Below, piece after piece: positions 1-8,215 of a stretch of DNA of 64,000 nt (positions within the stretch are counted from its first letter, which is position 1; each line of letters starts with the position of its first letter). The stretch comes from Mogibacterium sp. (GTDB lineage: Bacteria; Bacillota; Clostridia; Peptostreptococcales; Anaerovoracaceae): NCBI GenBank assembly GCA_017403955.1, contig JAFRDH010000007.1, positions 124,001 to 188,000 on the forward strand, given 5' to 3'. Under the pieces are notes generated by a model. The model did not search any database. It saw only the letters and a program-made list of their open reading frames with translations, and was not told the origin of the DNA. The position numbers were made by a program, and so were the translations under genes.

Positions 1-174
1 GACAGCGAAAGGTATTATGAACTGATCGAACGGGGAAATAAGTTCCTCGAAGACGGTAATATTGAGGCCCTGCGAGGGATAGTGATCTCTATCCTGAATC
101 TCAGAAAAGATGATGACGATGACATTGAGGAGATGACAGGCCTTATGGACGTCGCTAATATCATCAAAGGATAG
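1..174 (+). CDS. C-terminal end of a probable Hsp70-like chaperone (partial)
   Basis: Only the last 57 codons are in the window; the start lies upstream. The tail is helical and charged (ERGNKFLEDGNIEALRGI, then a run of five Asp residues). It resembles the C-terminal helical tail of non-DnaK Hsp70-family proteins, where a segment of the type 'GxxALxxxDxxxLR' precedes the end. The next genes are an AAA+ ATPase and two J-like proteins, which fits an Hsp70 partner. The assignment rests on this short tail and on context, so it is tentative. The stop is 11 bp before the AAA+ start, suggesting one operon. Confidence 0.4.
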   Translation, partial: DSERYYELIERGNKFLEDGNIEALRGIVISILNLRKDDDDDIEEMTGLMDVANIIKG

Positions 175-185
175 GAGAATAAGTA

Positions 186-1592
186 ATGAAAATGTGGCTT
201 AAAAAGGGCACGGCTGTTGGTGGCGCCACAGCCGGAAGAATGATAGCTTCCGGTGATGATTGGCAGATCTATAAGACTGACAGGGAGTCTTACATCCTTG
301 CTGTGCGCAAAAGCCTGGCGGCAAGATGGTCGGATCATCCTGAGACTGCTTCTCTTTTCACACCTTATACAAAAGATGAGGATATACTGACCTTTGTCTC
401 TAAACCGGGATGGTTAGTGTCGTCTCTGAGCAAAGGACCGTTCCCTCGCGCGAGAACACAGATCGAGAATTTTGACAATGCATGCGTGAGACTCAGGAGA
501 GAGTATCCCGATGCGCCTGTAACAGGAGCGTTATTCATAGAAGAATGTAACCTTATACTTCCTGCTGACCCTGACGCAGACAGATCAGACGATGATCTTG
601 CGATCGGCACCTGGATCACGGGCGGCGTCCACGTCCTCATATCGGATACAGCGGCGGCACACAGAATGGCGTCATGGTTCCCCGAAGAAGTGCTGATGAG
701 GATCGCAGAGGATGCAAAAGTGGTCCAGGGCAAAGGCGCGGGGCTGCGGACGAGAACGGATGTCGCAGATGCGAATGTGAACACTGATGATCCAGTGCCG
801 CCTGTATCTGCAAGGAGAGAGATGCCTGACGAACCGTTCAGCCTCCCGGGCAGCAGCAAACTCGAGAAGTTTTTCAATGAAGAAATAATAGATATCGTGC
901 GACACGCTGATGAGTACAAGAGGATGGGGATCGAATTCCCGGGAGCGGTAGTGCTCTACGGACCGCCGGGCACCGGCAAGACTTTTGCCGTAGAGAAACT
1001 CGCCGAATACCTCGGATGGCCGAGATACGACATCAACTCAGACAGTGTCGGCAGCACATACATACATGAGACAGGAATGAAGATCGCAAGGATTTTCGAC
1101 ATGGCGATCAGCAATGCACCGTCCGTTATAGTGATCGATGAGATGGAATCCTTCCTGTCTGAAAGGGCCGGAAAGCAGCAGCACCACGTTGAGGAAGTCG
1201 CAGAGTTTCTCCGCAAGATACCTGAAGCGACATCGAAAAATGTGCTTGTTTTCGGTATGACCAATGTCATAAAGGAAATCGATCAGGCTATACTCAGGCG
1301 GGGCAGATTCGACTATATGATAGAGGTCGATTACGCGGACAAGAACGATATAAGAAATTTGCTGGAGGCCAGAAAGAAAACGATCCCGATCGATGATGAT
1401 GCAGATCTTGACAGACTTGCCGGCGAACTTGCAGGACATCCTATGTCGGATGTGGTTTTCGTCCTGAAAGAAGCCGGAAGATACGCTGTCAAAAATAGGG
1501 TCAGGACAATAACAGATGAGGCTTTCAGAGCAGCACTCAAACAGCTTAAGGGCGTCAAGAAGACAAAAAACAAAATAGGTTTTTCAGTTTAG
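186..1592 (+). CDS. AAA+ ATPase of a putative Hsp70/J-like module
   Basis: The 468-aa product has a C-terminal AAA+ ATPase domain from about residue 220 on. Walker A is GPPGTGKT (259-266), Walker B is VIVIDEME (about 314-321), sensor 1 is the TN near 360, and the arginine-finger segment RRGRFD is at 371-376. This is the classical, FtsH/proteasomal-ATPase-like type. The first 210 residues match no domain I recognise and may bind substrate or partner. No transmembrane segment or protease domain is seen, so it probably acts as a cytosolic remodelling ATPase. A GGAGAAT ribosome site precedes the start. It lies between the probable Hsp70-like gene and two J-like genes, which suggests a joint chaperone function (inference). 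Confidence 0.8.
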   Translation: MKMWLKKGTAVGGATAGRMIASGDDWQIYKTDRESYILAVRKSLAARWSDHPETASLFTPYTKDEDILTFVSKPGWLVSSLSKGPFPRARTQIENFDNACVRLRREYPDAPVTGALFIEECNLILPADPDADRSDDDLAIGTWITGGVHVLISDTAAAHRMASWFPEEVLMRIAEDAKVVQGKGAGLRTRTDVADANVNTDDPVPPVSARREMPDEPFSLPGSSKLEKFFNEEIIDIVRHADEYKRMGIEFPGAVVLYGPPGTGKTFAVEKLAEYLGWPRYDINSDSVGSTYIHETGMKIARIFDMAISNAPSVIVIDEMESFLSERAGKQQHHVEEVAEFLRKIPEATSKNVLVFGMTNVIKEIDQAILRRGRFDYMIEVDYADKNDIRNLLEARKKTIPIDDDADLDRLAGELAGHPMSDVVFVLKEAGRYAVKNRVRTITDEAFRAALKQLKGVKKTKNKIGFSV

Positions 1593-1613
1593 ACAGCAGG
1601 AGTGAAGATAAGG

Positions 1614-2870
1614 ATGCTGCAGAATAATCCGTTTTACATATTGAATATCCCGATGAACGCGGGCAAAAGCGCGATAGTTGCCGCATCAGAAGCTGCGCTC
1701 CTGAAAGGCAGCAAAAAACCCGGCGATGAGAGCGAAGGCGCTTTTTCCGTGCTGGTAAATCCCGATCAGCGCCTTGCTGCCGAACTTGATTGGTTCCCGG
1801 GGCTTGAGGAAGAGAAAATCTCTGAGATATGCCGTGCGGTCAGATCTACTCTGCCGATAGATGAACAGGGACTCAGTGGTGTAGCTCTTCTCAATGCCGG
1901 GCTTTACAACCTTGGCCTCATGACAATGCAGAAGGGCGGGAGCAAAAAGAACTTCATACAGAGCGTTGCTGATGCTGTATGGAAGATCGCTGAGCTTTAT
2001 GACAATATCAATGTTGCTGAACTGACAGACGCGATCAATGTTTCGAGGCAGCAGGCGGGTATAACACCGGCTGATCTGGTGACGGTTTTTTCAGCATGGC
2101 AGGACAGAAAGTCAGAGATAAGCAAGATCATCGATAATGCACTGAAAAACTGCAGGAAAGATCTGTATATTCAGATCTTCAGCAAGATAGCCGACGACCT
2201 TACAGGCGAGAATGCATTACCGATGAGGGGTATCATCAACGATGCCATAGACTGGTATGAGATCAACACATATGCAGAGGCAGGGCAGCTTGCTTATAAG
2301 ATCCGTGAGCAGAGGGACCGTATCAAAGGATGCAGCAGCTGGAACAAAATAGTGACCGGAAATGCCAGGTCATGGCTTTTAAAAGCAGCGAGAAAGTGGC
2401 GTGATATAGCCAAACCGATGCTGGTAAGAGCGGATCTGTTCGGGGCAGAATACGAGTGGGGCAAACTGGTAGCTGATTATGCTTTGGACGCATCTGTATG
2501 TATCAATTCCGGGAAGACTTTCGATAACCACGAGTTGATGAGTCATGAAATGAACGTATCCATGTCGTATATTCTGGGGAAAAACCGAGCTCTCGCAGAA
2601 CCTTTTAAGACGAGAGTGACCAATTGGGAAGAACACGAAAGAAAACGCAGTGAAGCACTAAAACAGACCGGTTGCTATAAGATATGTGTCGTAATTGTAA
2701 TAATTATGATAGTGGGAACTCTGGGATCATTCGTGTTCGGATACCTGACATCTCCTGACTCAATGAAGGGCTCCATTTTGATTGGAATGAGCAGCGGACT
2801 GCTGGGGCTGGCAATTATGATCCTGATTCCATATTTCATAGCAAAGAACAAACATCGCAAAGACAAGTAA
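1614..2870 (+). CDS. J-domain-like membrane protein 1
   Basis: The 418-aa product begins MLQNNPFYILNIPMNAGKS and contains VNPDQRLAAELDWFP. This is the layout of degenerate J-like N termini found beside Hsp70 genes ('NPFxILxIPxxAS', then 'P..RL.AEL.WFP'). The HPD motif needed for classical J-domain stimulation of Hsp70 is absent. A long helical middle is followed by two membrane segments near residues 353-377 and 388-410, and then a basic tail. I chose the ATG at 1614 over an upstream GTG at 1602 because it matches the start of the paralogue at 2872 and leaves room for the AGGAG site. The gene ends one base before that paralogue. Confidence 0.65.
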   Translation: MLQNNPFYILNIPMNAGKSAIVAASEAALLKGSKKPGDESEGAFSVLVNPDQRLAAELDWFPGLEEEKISEICRAVRSTLPIDEQGLSGVALLNAGLYNLGLMTMQKGGSKKNFIQSVADAVWKIAELYDNINVAELTDAINVSRQQAGITPADLVTVFSAWQDRKSEISKIIDNALKNCRKDLYIQIFSKIADDLTGENALPMRGIINDAIDWYEINTYAEAGQLAYKIREQRDRIKGCSSWNKIVTGNARSWLLKAARKWRDIAKPMLVRADLFGAEYEWGKLVADYALDASVCINSGKTFDNHELMSHEMNVSMSYILGKNRALAEPFKTRVTNWEEHERKRSEALKQTGCYKICVVIVIIMIVGTLGSFVFGYLTSPDSMKGSILIGMSSGLLGLAIMILIPYFIAKNKHRKDK

Positions 2871-2871
2871 T

Positions 2872-4584
2872 ATGCTGAGAGATAATCCTTTCTACATTTT
2901 TGAAATACCCATGGACGCATCCAAGGAAAGGATCATGGCTGCTGCAGAGAGGCAGAGCCTGAGATCTGATTCCGGGAATTGTGACCGCATGGCTGAAATG
3001 CTCGTCAAACCGGCAATAAGACTGGAAGCCGAACTTGACTGGTTTCCGCAGGAAGATGAGGAAACAATCAGGGCCATATTGGAGGCTGTAAAGAGAGAAG
3101 AGCCGGTACCGGATGTAACGGTATCCGGACTCAGCGAGCTTGGCAAGTTAAACGCTGAAGTATATGAATTATCACTTCATGAACCATCCGGATGGAATGA
3201 AAGCTTTGAAGATTGCAAAAAGACACTAGATGCTATAAGAAAGTATCTCTACAGTTTCTTCACGGATGATCTGCTGACAGCCATCAACGAAGAACGGCGC
3301 GAAGCGGGCATCTCTGAGCTCGACCGGTACACTCTGAGGGCAGGGGTCGAAGAGAAGCGTAAACGCGTCGAAGACGATCTGTCTGATCTCATCGGGAAAA
3401 TGACTGATGAGCAGGAACTCACATTTATGAATTTGCTGGCAGACTCATTTGCACCGGGAGACAGAGGGGAAGTGTCAGAAGCCTTGCTTTTCAGTGCGCT
3501 TGCAGAACGCTTTGAAACGCGGACATCAGCAAAATATGTCACTTTGTCCGAAGAACTGAAGACCGCCATCGAGGGAGTGAATAAACCGGGCGGTTTTTTC
3601 ACGATGCATTTTCGCAGGAAGCGCTATAACGAGAAAATGAGTGCATGGCTCAGATACGACAAACCTTTGCATGTGGCAGCTGCTCTTTCGGGATTTGCCC
3701 GTGACGAGAGTCTGAATATGCTCCGTCGATGTTTAGGACTGATCAGCAAACTCGTTTCTGTAGATGGACCGGTAGATTGCTATGAATTTCTGAATGCTCT
3801 CGAAGAGCAATTTGCAGCGGTTCCCGGCGCTAAAGAATTGATTGCGGAGAATAAGGAGCATGTCGGGAAACTGATCAAAAAGCTATTAAAAGACACACCC
3901 GAAAATGCAATACGAAAGAGAAATTTTGAAAGAAAAAGCTCTAAATTCACAACCGCGTTTCTGATCGTAATGTTCCTGTTCTTTGGGTTTGCCATGCTTA
4001 CCGCACCTTCTGAGTCTGAGCAGGCAAATGATCCTTCAAGCAGAGTCTACAAGGAAATGAGACTTTCTTATGAGATCAATCAACATGGTGAATTTGAGCA
4101 AATAAGAATGCCTGTGACAGGATTCATATTCCAGGACACAATGGGAGATGAAGGCAGGAGTGTTACTGTGATCCTCAAAGGAGATATCAATACTTCCAGC
4201 TTTGTCAGGATCAGCGACCGGGACTATGGGGATGAAACCTATATCTTCCTACCGGATGAAGAAGTTCCTATTACATACAAGCTCCCTTTGGAAGAAGATG
4301 AAAAAGTAAAGCAGGACGATGTACCTTCGGATGCTAAGATCCTGAGTGTCATGGTACAGGATGATGAAGAGACTGAGATCACCCTGCCGCCGGGTGAGTA
4401 CTACCTTTCTCACGACTACGGCTATTTATGGTATGGCTGGAGACTCCGGTTCACAGGGGAGCCGCAGATGATCCTGGATCCGTATCCGGAAATCAAAATC
4501 CCTGAGATGAAACCTATGAATAGTACACCGGTCACATTCGAAGCAGGAAAGAAATACATAATCAGACTCGAACAATTACACTAG
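2872..4584 (+). CDS. J-domain-like membrane protein 2 with exported C-terminal domain
   Basis: This 570-aa paralogue of the preceding protein starts MLRDNPFYIFEIPMDASKE and again has KPAIRLEAELDWFP, with no HPD. A helical region runs to about residue 350, and a single membrane segment (about 359-377, TAFLIVMFLFFGFAML) leads to a C-terminal domain of about 190 residues rich in beta strands. That domain matches no family I recognise and is probably on the other side of the membrane. The start codon follows the previous stop by one base, so translation is probably coupled. It ends the Hsp70-AAA-J module; the next gene is 74 bp away with its own ribosome site. Confidence 0.6.
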   Translation: MLRDNPFYIFEIPMDASKERIMAAAERQSLRSDSGNCDRMAEMLVKPAIRLEAELDWFPQEDEETIRAILEAVKREEPVPDVTVSGLSELGKLNAEVYELSLHEPSGWNESFEDCKKTLDAIRKYLYSFFTDDLLTAINEERREAGISELDRYTLRAGVEEKRKRVEDDLSDLIGKMTDEQELTFMNLLADSFAPGDRGEVSEALLFSALAERFETRTSAKYVTLSEELKTAIEGVNKPGGFFTMHFRRKRYNEKMSAWLRYDKPLHVAAALSGFARDESLNMLRRCLGLISKLVSVDGPVDCYEFLNALEEQFAAVPGAKELIAENKEHVGKLIKKLLKDTPENAIRKRNFERKSSKFTTAFLIVMFLFFGFAMLTAPSESEQANDPSSRVYKEMRLSYEINQHGEFEQIRMPVTGFIFQDTMGDEGRSVTVILKGDINTSSFVRISDRDYGDETYIFLPDEEVPITYKLPLEEDEKVKQDDVPSDAKILSVMVQDDEETEITLPPGEYYLSHDYGYLWYGWRLRFTGEPQMILDPYPEIKIPEMKPMNSTPVTFEAGKKYIIRLEQLH

Positions 4585-4658: not shown

Positions 4659-5870
4659 ATGAAAGGGAAAAATCATTTGGGCAAAACGATATCTCTTTTG
4701 TGCATGATTCTGATGCTTTCCGGACTCGCTGCGGGATGCGGAAATACTACAGGATTCGTATCACAGTCAGGAGACATAAATGCCGGTTCGGCAGAACTCG
4801 ATACTGACATTCAGGAATCAACTGAAAATGAACAGGAGCAGGCCTCTGATGAAGAACCGCCTGCTGATACTGAGGAGCCTGCAGATACTGCTTCTGTTGA
4901 AGTCAAAGAGATCGCCATCACCGATATTGGAGATATCGCGATCGGTCAGACGGAGAATGCAGAGGCAGGGACCGGCTGCACTGTGTTTATCAGCAAAGAG
5001 GGGATGCCGGCCGGACTTGATGTGCGAGGCGGAGGTCCTGCTTCTCGTGAGTCAGAACTCCTCGATCCTCTCGCGGCTGCTTCGAGCATCCACGCAATAG
5101 TGCTTTCAGGAGGATGCGCATTCGGACTCGGAACTGCTGATGGCGTAATGAAATACCTCGAGGAGAAGGACATAGGCTATGACACCGGTGTAGCCAAGGT
5201 TCCTCTGGTAGCTCAGGCAGATCTTTACGATCTGTCAGTTGGTGATGGTTCTGTAAGACCTGATGCGGATATGGGCTATGAAGCTGCCCGTATTGCCATG
5301 GAGTCACCTAATTACAAAGACGGCAATTATGGCGCGGGATGCGGAGCTACAGTCGGCAAAATTGCCGGTATGGAAACTTGCATGAAAGCCGGTATAGGGA
5401 GTTATGCTATACAGATCGGCGACCTGAAAGTCGGTGCGGTAGTAGCAGTCAACGCTCTCGGAGACATCTATGACTGGAAGACAGGCAAGAAAATCGCAGG
5501 ACTTCTGACGGAAGATGGTAAAGGTTTCCGCGATACTCTTGAGTATATGGCCATGGACACCTCGGCGAAGGACAACAAATTCACCGGAAATACCACACTC
5601 GGCGTGGTAATGACCAATGCTGCTTTCAACAAATCCCAGCTTTGCAAGATCGCAGGCATGACACATGACGGTTTTGCGAGGTCCATCAGACCTGTGCATA
5701 CTTCTATTGATGGCGACAGCATTTACGCTGTTTCGGTAGGAACTGTTGAAGCAGATCAGGATCTGGTCGGATCACTTTCTGCTGTTGTCATGAGCGAAGC
5801 GATCAAGAGAGCAGTCTATAACGCGGACAGCGCTTATGGATTCACGGCTGCCAAGGACCTGAAACAATAA
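4659..5870 (+). CDS. P1-family (DmpA-like) peptidase lipoprotein
   Basis: The 403-aa protein begins with a lipoprotein signal (lipobox LAAGC, Cys near residue 27) and an Asp/Glu-rich linker, so it should be anchored outside the cell. The rest is a P1/S58-family aminopeptidase (DmpA, L-aminopeptidase/D-esterase type). It has the glycine-rich GTGCTVF and VLSGGCAFGL segments, NYGAGCGATVGK, and GNTTLGVVMTNA, where the family self-cleaves before the nucleophilic Thr/Ser. Members are Ntn-type hydrolases that remove N-terminal residues from small peptides. Most known members lack a lipoprotein anchor, which makes this form notable. The ribosome site is AAGGAG. Confidence 0.85.
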   Translation: MKGKNHLGKTISLLCMILMLSGLAAGCGNTTGFVSQSGDINAGSAELDTDIQESTENEQEQASDEEPPADTEEPADTASVEVKEIAITDIGDIAIGQTENAEAGTGCTVFISKEGMPAGLDVRGGGPASRESELLDPLAAASSIHAIVLSGGCAFGLGTADGVMKYLEEKDIGYDTGVAKVPLVAQADLYDLSVGDGSVRPDADMGYEAARIAMESPNYKDGNYGAGCGATVGKIAGMETCMKAGIGSYAIQIGDLKVGAVVAVNALGDIYDWKTGKKIAGLLTEDGKGFRDTLEYMAMDTSAKDNKFTGNTTLGVVMTNAAFNKSQLCKIAGMTHDGFARSIRPVHTSIDGDSIYAVSVGTVEADQDLVGSLSAVVMSEAIKRAVYNADSAYGFTAAKDLKQ

Positions 5871-7061: not shown

Positions 7062-8215
7062 TGAAGAAAATTTTGAAAATCCTCGGAGTGATCATTCTGC
7101 TGCTTGCAATAACACTGTTTGCAGTGATCATCTACCTCGGCCACCATCCTGAGATAGCCTTAAGAATTGTCTCGCAACCAATCAAAGAAGATCAGGTTGC
7201 CGAGGTTTCTTACACTTACAATTATGATAAAGAATCAGAGACTGATGCAATACCTGACTTCGCTTTCAGACCTTCCGGGAGCGGTAATTACACATTCAGT
7301 GCTATCGATCTTGAAAGCAGCACTGAAGTGTATATGACGATGAGTGTCACGGATAAATCACTTAATGATCACTTCATTGCAGACAACCTCGGCCGCAGAA
7401 ATGGAAGCCTGAAGAATGAAATATACGGGACGGCGACCCTTCAGGAAGATCAGGAAACCTATATACTTTTCACAGTAGAGCCGGTGAATGGAGATCTGAG
7501 TCAGTTCTCAGGTTCATTCAAATTGATCGTGACGAAAGATAAGGATGACGCAGGCCCTCCTCAGCTTACAATGGATGGACCTGTGAATGTCACAGTCAGT
7601 GGCGGAGGGCAGGGATGCGCTCTGTTTGTGCCGCCGGAGACAGGATATTACAGATTTGAGAATTCCTTAGTCTCGCGCGACTCTTCAATAGGTTATTCCA
7701 GCCTATCATCGATAACAACTACCGGGCGCAGCAAGGTCAGCGTGACCAGTGATATAAGTATGCTGCAGAAAGACAAAGAGTATTATGTCTGGGTCGTTGC
7801 GAATGAGTCCAACAGAAGAAGATCCAGGGTGCAGCTTTCATGCAGTCTGCTTAAGACGGAAAAAGCAACAGGCATTTGTTATCTGGATCTCAGCGGGGAA
7901 AGTGTGATCGAGTACGTTGCAGACAAAGCCTGTAACCTTGCCGTTTATACGGTGTCCGGAGGGGATCCGAGGGCTGTTATATACGATAAGGAAGGATACC
8001 CGTTACGTACCGATGACACATCTGATACATCGCTCAGCGATAATCCGCATGATATCGCAACGGTTCTCAAAGTTGAAAAAGGAACATTACTTCATATCTG
8101 TGTATATGGTGATGTTACTGACTGCCGCGTCTTCATCACGGAGTATACAGGTGACGGAACGACATTTACTAAAGATGATTTGACGCCGCTACCGGAGAGC
8201 GCTCCTGCGCCTTAG
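7061..8215 (+). CDS. membrane-anchored extracellular protein, function unknown
   Basis: The 384-aa product starts MKKILKILGVIILLL with one N-terminal membrane segment (about residues 4-27). A beta-rich exterior of about 350 residues follows, with tandem sandwich-like units (SGSGNYTFSAIDLES; PPETGYYRFENSL; DKACNLAVYTVSGG) resembling pre-peptidase C-terminal or similar surface folds. I chose the ATG at 7061 over in-frame ATGs at 7046 and 7058 because GGGGGAAG then has normal spacing, and the start overlaps the upstream stop. The C terminus is proline-rich. Family unknown. Confidence 0.6.
   Translation: MKKILKILGVIILLLAITLFAVIIYLGHHPEIALRIVSQPIKEDQVAEVSYTYNYDKESETDAIPDFAFRPSGSGNYTFSAIDLESSTEVYMTMSVTDKSLNDHFIADNLGRRNGSLKNEIYGTATLQEDQETYILFTVEPVNGDLSQFSGSFKLIVTKDKDDAGPPQLTMDGPVNVTVSGGGQGCALFVPPETGYYRFENSLVSRDSSIGYSSLSSITTTGRSKVSVTSDISMLQKDKEYYVWVVANESNRRRSRVQLSCSLLKTEKATGICYLDLSGESVIEYVADKACNLAVYTVSGGDPRAVIYDKEGYPLRTDDTSDTSLSDNPHDIATVLKVEKGTLLHICVYGDVTDCRVFITEYTGDGTTFTKDDLTPLPESAPAP

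Follow-up and report, generated by a model that had tools for sequence, protein, structure and literature searches.

A mobile Hsp70 and AAA+ operon with J-like proteins lacking the HPD motif in Mogibacterium sp.: a possible defence system

GTPase-centric conflict systems of the GAP1-N2 type, with an HSP70/GrpE theme, have been predicted in firmicutes and actinobacteria (Kaur et al. 2020, PMC7159879, available part of the article), and the type III CoCoNuT systems, which are tied to McrBC, include CnuD, an Hsp70-like protein with degenerate Walker A-like motifs (PMC11090510, available part). Here, we describe an operon of the gut bacterium Mogibacterium sp. in which five genes encode, in this order, a GrpE-like protein, an Hsp70, an AAA+ ATPase and two J-like proteins (J1 and J2). 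It reaches into the start of a stretch of 64,000 nucleotides, referred to below as the window (GenBank assembly GCA_017403955.1, contig JAFRDH010000007.1, positions 124,001 to 188,000). This operon is a mobile unit that has been carried between phyla on mobile elements and, judging from alignments, the HPD motif on the J side and the contact arginine (R167) plus the linker on the Hsp70 side have been lost together, with the ATPase site intact. We read it as a membrane-tethered Hsp70/AAA+ machine, for which a role as an uncharacterised defence system is the most likely one, at about an even chance.

Gene content and paired loss of residues

The original prediction, made on the window, had proposed a chaperone module of four genes in which the Hsp70 partner was inferred from 57 codons. 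Extension of the contig upstream gave an Hsp70 of 828 amino acids (aa) that matches Pfam HSP70 (PF00012, expect value (E) 5.5e-56), which bears out that partner; the length is counted from the first start codon and is probably 827 aa from an ATG overlapping the stop of the preceding gene. All four genes are present, but the module was incomplete, as a fifth, GrpE-like gene sits upstream of the window. The four consecutive genes, described as separated by 1-21 bp, do have gaps of 11, 9 and 1 bp between Hsp70, AAA+, J1 and J2, the second being 21 bp if the ATG at 1614 is used as the start of J1. The features are as follows:

L007:7335-7691 (contig C22:121335-121691), upstream of the window: GrpE-like gene, 118 aa
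L007:7688-10174, likely ATG at 7691: full Hsp70 gene, from the upstream contig sequence
1..174, plus strand: 3' end of the Hsp70 gene, with the C terminus ANIIKG at 154-171; most of the gene lies outside the window
186..1592, plus strand: AAA+ ATPase gene, 468 aa, a single-module classical AAA+ (PF00004, Cdc48 match)
960..983, plus strand: Walker A GPPGTGKT, AAA+ residues 259-266
1125..1148, plus strand: Walker B VIVIDEME, AAA+ residues 314-321
1296..1313, plus strand: RRGRFD arginine-finger box, AAA+ residues 371-376
1602..2870, plus strand: J1, 422 aa, J-like N terminus without HPD and two C-terminal hydrophobic segments
1626..1796, plus strand: J-like domain of J1, residues 9-65, by motif pattern and profile
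2655..2846, plus strand: two predicted transmembrane (TM) segments of J1, residues 352-384 and 389-415, by hydropathy scan
2872..4584, plus strand: J2, 570 aa, J-like N terminus without HPD, helical body, one TM segment and a C-terminal domain
2884..3045, plus strand: J-like domain of J2, residues 5-58, by profile, with four predicted helices
3937..4017, plus strand: predicted TM segment of J2, residues 356-382, by hydropathy scan and AlphaFold
4018..4581, plus strand: part of J2 after the TM segment, with some low-confidence strands and a predicted local distance difference test score (pLDDT) mostly below 50 over residues 396-570

Seventy-four bp past J2, the window carries a lipoprotein-like protein of the Peptidase S58 family (4659-5870; PF03576, E 2.5e-32), whose gene is probably outside the operon.

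For the Hsp70 side, 17 proteins were compared: 12 of the AAA-type, three AAA-less relatives, one from a second cluster of the same genome and one from Haliscomenobacter. All of them retain, in the alignment, the five catalytic positions D8, K70, E171, D194 and T199 (E. coli DnaK numbering). R167 of DnaK is the arginine contacted by HPD, besides being paired with an aspartate in the interdomain linker (PMC7289447, available part). At this position, arginine was found in none of the 17 Hsp70s, which have alanine in 13 cases and S, V, I or E in the rest, and the 20-residue linker stretch, taken from the DnaK of the same genome, aligns in all 17 with 71-81 different residues, although this alignment is less certain for the most divergent rows. 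In the control, which comprised 29 Hsp70 locus rows of 24 genomes, arginine was present in 28, the sole exception being the operon-family copy in genome G010, and a linker pattern of the DVLLLD type in 26 of them (exceptions: the second Hsp70 of genome G078, a fragment, and the G010 copy); some of these rows are pieces of one gene, and the two divergent Hsp70s of the Mogibacterium genome were counted among the 17 and left out of the control.

On the J side, not one of 17 proteins assigned as J-like contains HPD; 14 of them fit the motif pattern, two (from the IMG/VR contig L041 and from Aminobacter) show a variant of it by eye, and the one from Pseudomonas was assigned by position only. Such a paired loss of HPD and of R167 with the linker points to a rewired Hsp70-J switch, in which the Hsp70 and the J-like proteins would be coupled by a route different from the standard one. 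Because HPD, the contact arginine and the linker are all missing, the J-like protein would act as a dock or scaffold rather than through an HPD-triggered ATPase switch.

Both J1 and J2 begin with NPFYI, as originally noted along with their lack of HPD, and their N termini share with the proteins of other operons the pattern N-P-F-x-I-L and a later R-L-x-x-E-x-x-W. Pfam gave sub-threshold matches only for J1 and none for J2, and DnaJ (PF00226) was matched by none of the eight members scanned. A profile of 14 J-like N termini, compared to 15 canonical J domains from the same and related genomes, scored 24.1, with 14.8 for the best of 60 column shuffles (0/60 as good) and 8.8 for the reversed profile. 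The local match extends over helix I and just into helix II, 22 columns at a probability of 46%, the global one 48 columns at 26%, and the second half of the profile alone scored 12.4 vs. 11.1 for shuffles, barely above them; against PDB, the profile found chance-level matches only. AlphaFold places helices at residues 6-9, 18-29, 34-45 and 47-55 of J2 with a pLDDT of about 90, which agrees with a J domain that is shortened and lacks the HPD loop. Beyond these helices, the model has a helical body, a single long membrane helix and a low-confidence C-terminal part. The J-like reading of the original prediction thus stood in part: the profile score above that of shuffles and the four predicted helices speak for it, the shortness and low probability of the match against it, and J-domain kinship is supported, but not proved, by this short match and the helix pattern. 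The membrane segments placed near residue 355 were found again, as hydrophobic stretches at 352-415 (J1, two segments) and 356-382 (J2). As for the proposed exported beta-rich domain of J2, strands are indeed predicted, but with weak support, given the pLDDT of this part.

Regarding the other Hsp70 features, all 12 AAA-type Hsp70s carry the tail [ASCT]NI[ILV]x[GS] at their very end or, in one of them, two residues before it. For a putative substrate-binding domain, SIGIEV aligns with SLSIET of DnaK, but the Pfam match spans the ATPase part only. The GrpE-like protein is 60% identical to a copy in a second Mogibacterium genome, and the family profile matched eight canonical GrpE proteins with an hhalign probability of 94% and a score of 50.3 (best shuffle 19.6, 0/60 as good); PF01025 was matched by three of six members scanned, the one from the window's operon not being among the six, with a best E of 3e-4.

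The AAA+ protein (PF00004, E 5.1e-28) has Cdc48/p97 as its nearest solved relatives, a Cdc48 chain aligning over residues 225-441 (E 6.4e-54). Walker A, Walker B and the arginine box R[RK]GRFD are present in 12/12 members, as is S-x-[YF]-I-H-[DE]-T, and the protein also carries an aromatic pore-loop-like motif. The intact Walker, sensor 1 and arginine-finger motifs of the original prediction were all found, the sensor-1 MTN being visible in the alignment. In all 12 members the protein ends in IGF plus 0-2 residues, and this tail and that of the Hsp70, both conserved, may be docking tails. Its N-terminal domain of about 200 aa is conserved within the family, without a credible sequence match in PDB or an identified fold.

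A kinase origin of this domain was considered because of a kinase-AAA fusion in Haliscomenobacter (PF00069, E 6.8e-35) and of the strand order in a weak model (predicted template-modelling score 0.42), but it is unsupported, as 29 of 40 shuffles reached the score of the real profile and PDB offered no credible match. The fusion itself (L027:12505-14319, on a plasmid) directly follows an Hsp70 gene and adjoins TerB and BREX genes.

Distribution, co-inheritance and variant architectures

The operon is rare among the relatives of its host. In counts that include the Mogibacterium genome itself and some incomplete genomes, J1 was present in 2 of 119 relatives, sporadically within the genus. Among 291 genomes sampled from the class, the J1/J2 profile detected the Mogibacterium genome and one weak match (G216, E 2.8e-4), the AAA profile at a strict 1e-40 the Mogibacterium genome only, and a first Hsp70 C-terminal profile the same genome and one partial match (G214); a second Hsp70 C-terminal profile was found in 2 of 398 genomes of the phylum. 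Such rarity among the 119 relatives, the 291 genomes of the class and the 398 of the phylum led us to reject a housekeeping chaperone of Clostridia, and the suggestion that the genes might stay together across Clostridia did not hold, since the unit is not spread in the class and instead moves between phyla. A family restricted to Mogibacterium, to which a contig scan with one relative had pointed (using exact peptide patterns, which missed the proteobacterial members), was in turn overturned by copies from plasmids, IMG/VR and E. coli.

Hsp70s of the wider family were found in 15 of 72,556 plasmids at E 1e-60; in four of these, 80% or more of the Hsp70 C-terminal part is covered, and an operon-type AAA at 1e-60 occurs on these four plasmids and on no other. 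The core of GrpE, Hsp70, AAA and J genes is present on plasmids of Vibrio, Shewanella, Aeromonas and Polaromonas, in another genome of the same phylum as Mogibacterium, and on IMG/VR contigs L039-L041 and L043, whereas L042 begins inside the Hsp70. These five contigs (L039-L043) hold both the operon-type Hsp70 and the AAA, a sixth AAA match being weak (L077, E 3e-6); the J1/J2 profile detected nothing in IMG/VR, where the Hsp70 profile did find members. In E. coli, 2 of 5426 genomes carry it, one complete (HeN100) and one truncated between IS1 elements, and none of 50,697 cultured phage records gave a match at E 1e-60. At least two phyla are represented among the carriers of the operon.

In a tree of the Hsp70s, where four rows have long branches, those of the AAA-type group in a single clade (99/99). 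Over 11 loci (v42 was left out, its GrpE-like gene not being on the contig), the pairwise distances of Hsp70, AAA, GrpE-like and J-like proteins correlate with r = 0.90-0.97, and 0 of 2000 permutations were as good for each of the six pairs. Because it recurs in other genera and phyla and the distances of the four genes correlate, the operon is a real unit and not a chance array. Over the same loci, mean identity was 0.57 for Hsp70 vs. 0.34 for the J-like proteins, which diverge much faster.

The link to the membrane takes different forms. By hydropathy, TM segments are predicted in both J-like proteins of the Mogibacterium genome, in one of two in G010, and in the single one of genome G535. 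Seven of nine proteobacterial or viral AAA-type loci (Aeromonas not counted apart) have a separate protein in place of a TM-bearing J-like protein; six of these seven show GFAGL...SDVD near the N terminus and four exceed the hydropathy threshold for a TM segment, and no separate membrane-type protein was identified in Polaromonas or L041. The separate protein of Shewanella has a peptidoglycan-binding domain (E 1.5e-15), and the AAA-less relative from Aminobacter unites J-like, TM and peptidoglycan-binding parts in a single protein. Being fused in one lineage and split in another, the J-like and TM/peptidoglycan-binding parts are suggested to work together.

AAA-less variants, with a J-like or similarly placed gene, a GrpE-like gene and an Hsp70, were seen on plasmids of Sinorhizobium, Aminobacter and Pseudomonas (L026, L028-L031), with Gabija-like genes near the Aminobacter copy (PADLOC) and annotated restriction or UvrD/endonuclease genes near the Sinorhizobium ones. 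The Mogibacterium genome itself has a second chaperone cluster on contig C12 (L008:6986-15204), which includes an Hsp70 (838 aa) that also lacks R167 (I instead) and a GrpE-like protein (141 aa), whose match to PF01025 reached 21.0 bits, under the gathering cut-off of 25.8; its other members are a J-like/Sel1/DUF1883 protein (747 aa), a SpoVK-like AAA (480 aa) and a protein that has a zinc ribbon and matches TPR weakly.

Possible functions and genomic surroundings

In the explanation that we favour, the five genes would form a self-contained chaperone machine on mobile elements. The J-like proteins would be adaptors tethered to the membrane that deliver a client to the dedicated Hsp70, which would be reset by the GrpE-like protein, and threading or extraction of the client would fall to the AAA+ ring. 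This client would probably be a protein of an invader or of the envelope, and the most likely role would be a defence, acting at the membrane, that is directed at phages or other mobile DNA. Rather more tentatively, and somewhat short of an even chance, we propose a new mobile immune machine with altered Hsp70 coupling, in which membrane J-like proteins without HPD would be the infection sensors and clients would be passed to a Cdc48-like ring. If this is true, a whole Hsp70 machine would be serving as transferable immunity.

Of 12 independent AAA-type loci (Shewanella and Aeromonas counted as one, the fragment NH-21 left out), six have a defence-model match or a defence-named gene within 9 kb. 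These are zorA and brxD in Polaromonas; rdrB and a dptF remnant in E. coli HeN100, within a tRNA-Phe island; Cas3e in G535, with its start 147 bp past the last gene of the operon and further cas genes of a CRISPR-Cas locus recognised by eye; HmaA (2139 bits), HmaB and PtuA in L040; a QatC model match in L039; and a DrmC-like one in Vibrio. Two cases are weaker: the L041 locus has a UvrD helicase nearby, and the G010 operon is shortly followed by a TIR protein (L013:12716-13652; PF13676, E 2.2e-21), with a small lipoprotein-like gene between.

Several observations weigh against a defence role or against parts of the machine as we picture it. For QatC and DrmC, a single gene matches in each case, not a whole system; among the neighbours chosen for scanning, no defence gene was recognised by the window copy, the Tn7-like copies of Shewanella and Aeromonas or L042, and L043 gave a weak LeoBC match only. 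The PADLOC scans of neighbours lacked a matched control. For a control within the same plasmids, annotated defence genes were counted by eye on the basis of product names; they occurred in 4/8 case vs. 2/8 control windows, which is not significant, and only three of the eight plasmids carry the operon-type AAA (L024, a near copy of L023, L031, of the same locus kind as L028, and L032, without annotation, were left out). Moreover, the operon contains no nuclease, NADase or proven pore, the local match of the J-like profile is short, and the N-terminal domain of the AAA+ has no assigned fold.

The main rival is an accessory stress-tolerance cargo, that is, a membrane-protein quality-control system that would extract damaged proteins and be mobile because it is useful to stressed hosts. 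The components that could be recognised are indeed those of a chaperone, their ATPase motifs are intact, there is no evident effector enzyme, and two of the four plasmid copies lie in similar Tn7-like elements, one of them beside mercury resistance; the non-significant same-plasmid control agrees with it as well. However, matches to anti-phage genes beside 6/12 loci argue against it, and the fast divergence of the J-like proteins would be more in keeping with a target that changes than with a general chaperone. We consider this explanation unlikely, though still to be taken seriously. At the Tn7-like loci (L023:3559-23253 and L024:3556-23379), annotated TnsA, a Mu-type transposase, TnsD and TnsE adjoin the operon, and several small linked genes are shared by the two genera.

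A function serving the mobile element itself (its maintenance, counter-defence, or competition against rival phages), in which defence of the host would be a by-product, would agree with the presence of the operon on plasmids, in Tn7-like elements, in the tRNA-Phe island and on contigs with phage-like genes. Against it, visual inspection of the open reading frames within about 7 kb on each side of the window copy revealed no mobile genes, and the G535 copy directly precedes cas3; this explanation seems quite improbable to us. Least probable of all is a dedicated assembly or maturation factor for one host envelope complex, which would account for the membrane segments and the peptidoglycan-binding domains in J-like or linked proteins, but for which no conserved linked client gene was seen by eye across the inspected loci, and the presence of the operon is sporadic in the genus, yet spread over at least two phyla.

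Comparison with known systems

Our literature search, beyond whose reach most subscription papers lay, found no description of this operon. The available parts of a paper on DnaK duplication (PMC11019930) and of one on E. coli defence islands (PMC10121019) contain nothing on it, and in the main text of the latter a word search found no pheU, pheV or Hsp70. PADLOC has no model for the core, the Hsp70 and J-like proteins giving weak partial matches only (E 1e-4 or worse) and the E. coli GrpE-like protein none. The AAA domain does match its IetA models (best E 3.6e-27), in the AAA region only. IetA has a subtilase as its partner in the IetAS anti-phage system, and no subtilase showed in the operon; the likeness is limited to the AAA domain and is read as shared AAA ancestry. 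Similarly, the operon AAA+ shares its AAA module with the Cdc48/p97 type, but it has a single one, a different N-terminal domain and the C-terminal IGF tail.

The GAP1-N2 systems resemble the operon in that they have HSP70, GrpE and a protein fused to DnaJ or TPR and are supposed to act near the membrane, but those systems, as set out in the available part of PMC7159879, centre on a GTPase and a GAP1 protein, in place of which the operon has a Cdc48-like AAA+, and it lacks HPD; no GTPase or GAP1 match was found with Pfam in the Hsp70, the AAA+ and the two J-like proteins, the four operon proteins scanned. CoCoNuT likewise combines Hsp70-like and Cdc48-like proteins (with SpoVK/Cdc48-like extensions) within defence operons, whereas the main text of PMC11090510, in a word search of its available part, names no DnaJ, J-domain or GrpE. 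In bNACHT25, a J protein takes part in phage sensing, but there, according to the available part of PMC12169576, it is the host DnaJ with an NLR-related protein and not a dedicated Hsp70/AAA operon.

Finally, the canonical GrpE-DnaK-DnaJ system, which the same genome also encodes (C22:16338-18790, its GrpE inferred from a weak match, E 0.025), resembles the operon in having Hsp70, J-type and GrpE-type proteins and in the catalytic residues kept by the Hsp70. It differs in that the Hsp70 of the operon lacks R167 and the linker and its J-like proteins lack HPD, and in that the operon adds an AAA+ and J-like proteins predicted to be tethered to the membrane. As a natural experiment, the operon bears on the way in which J proteins drive Hsp70, and it makes directly testable whether an Hsp70 can couple to a J-type partner by another route than that of the canonical system.

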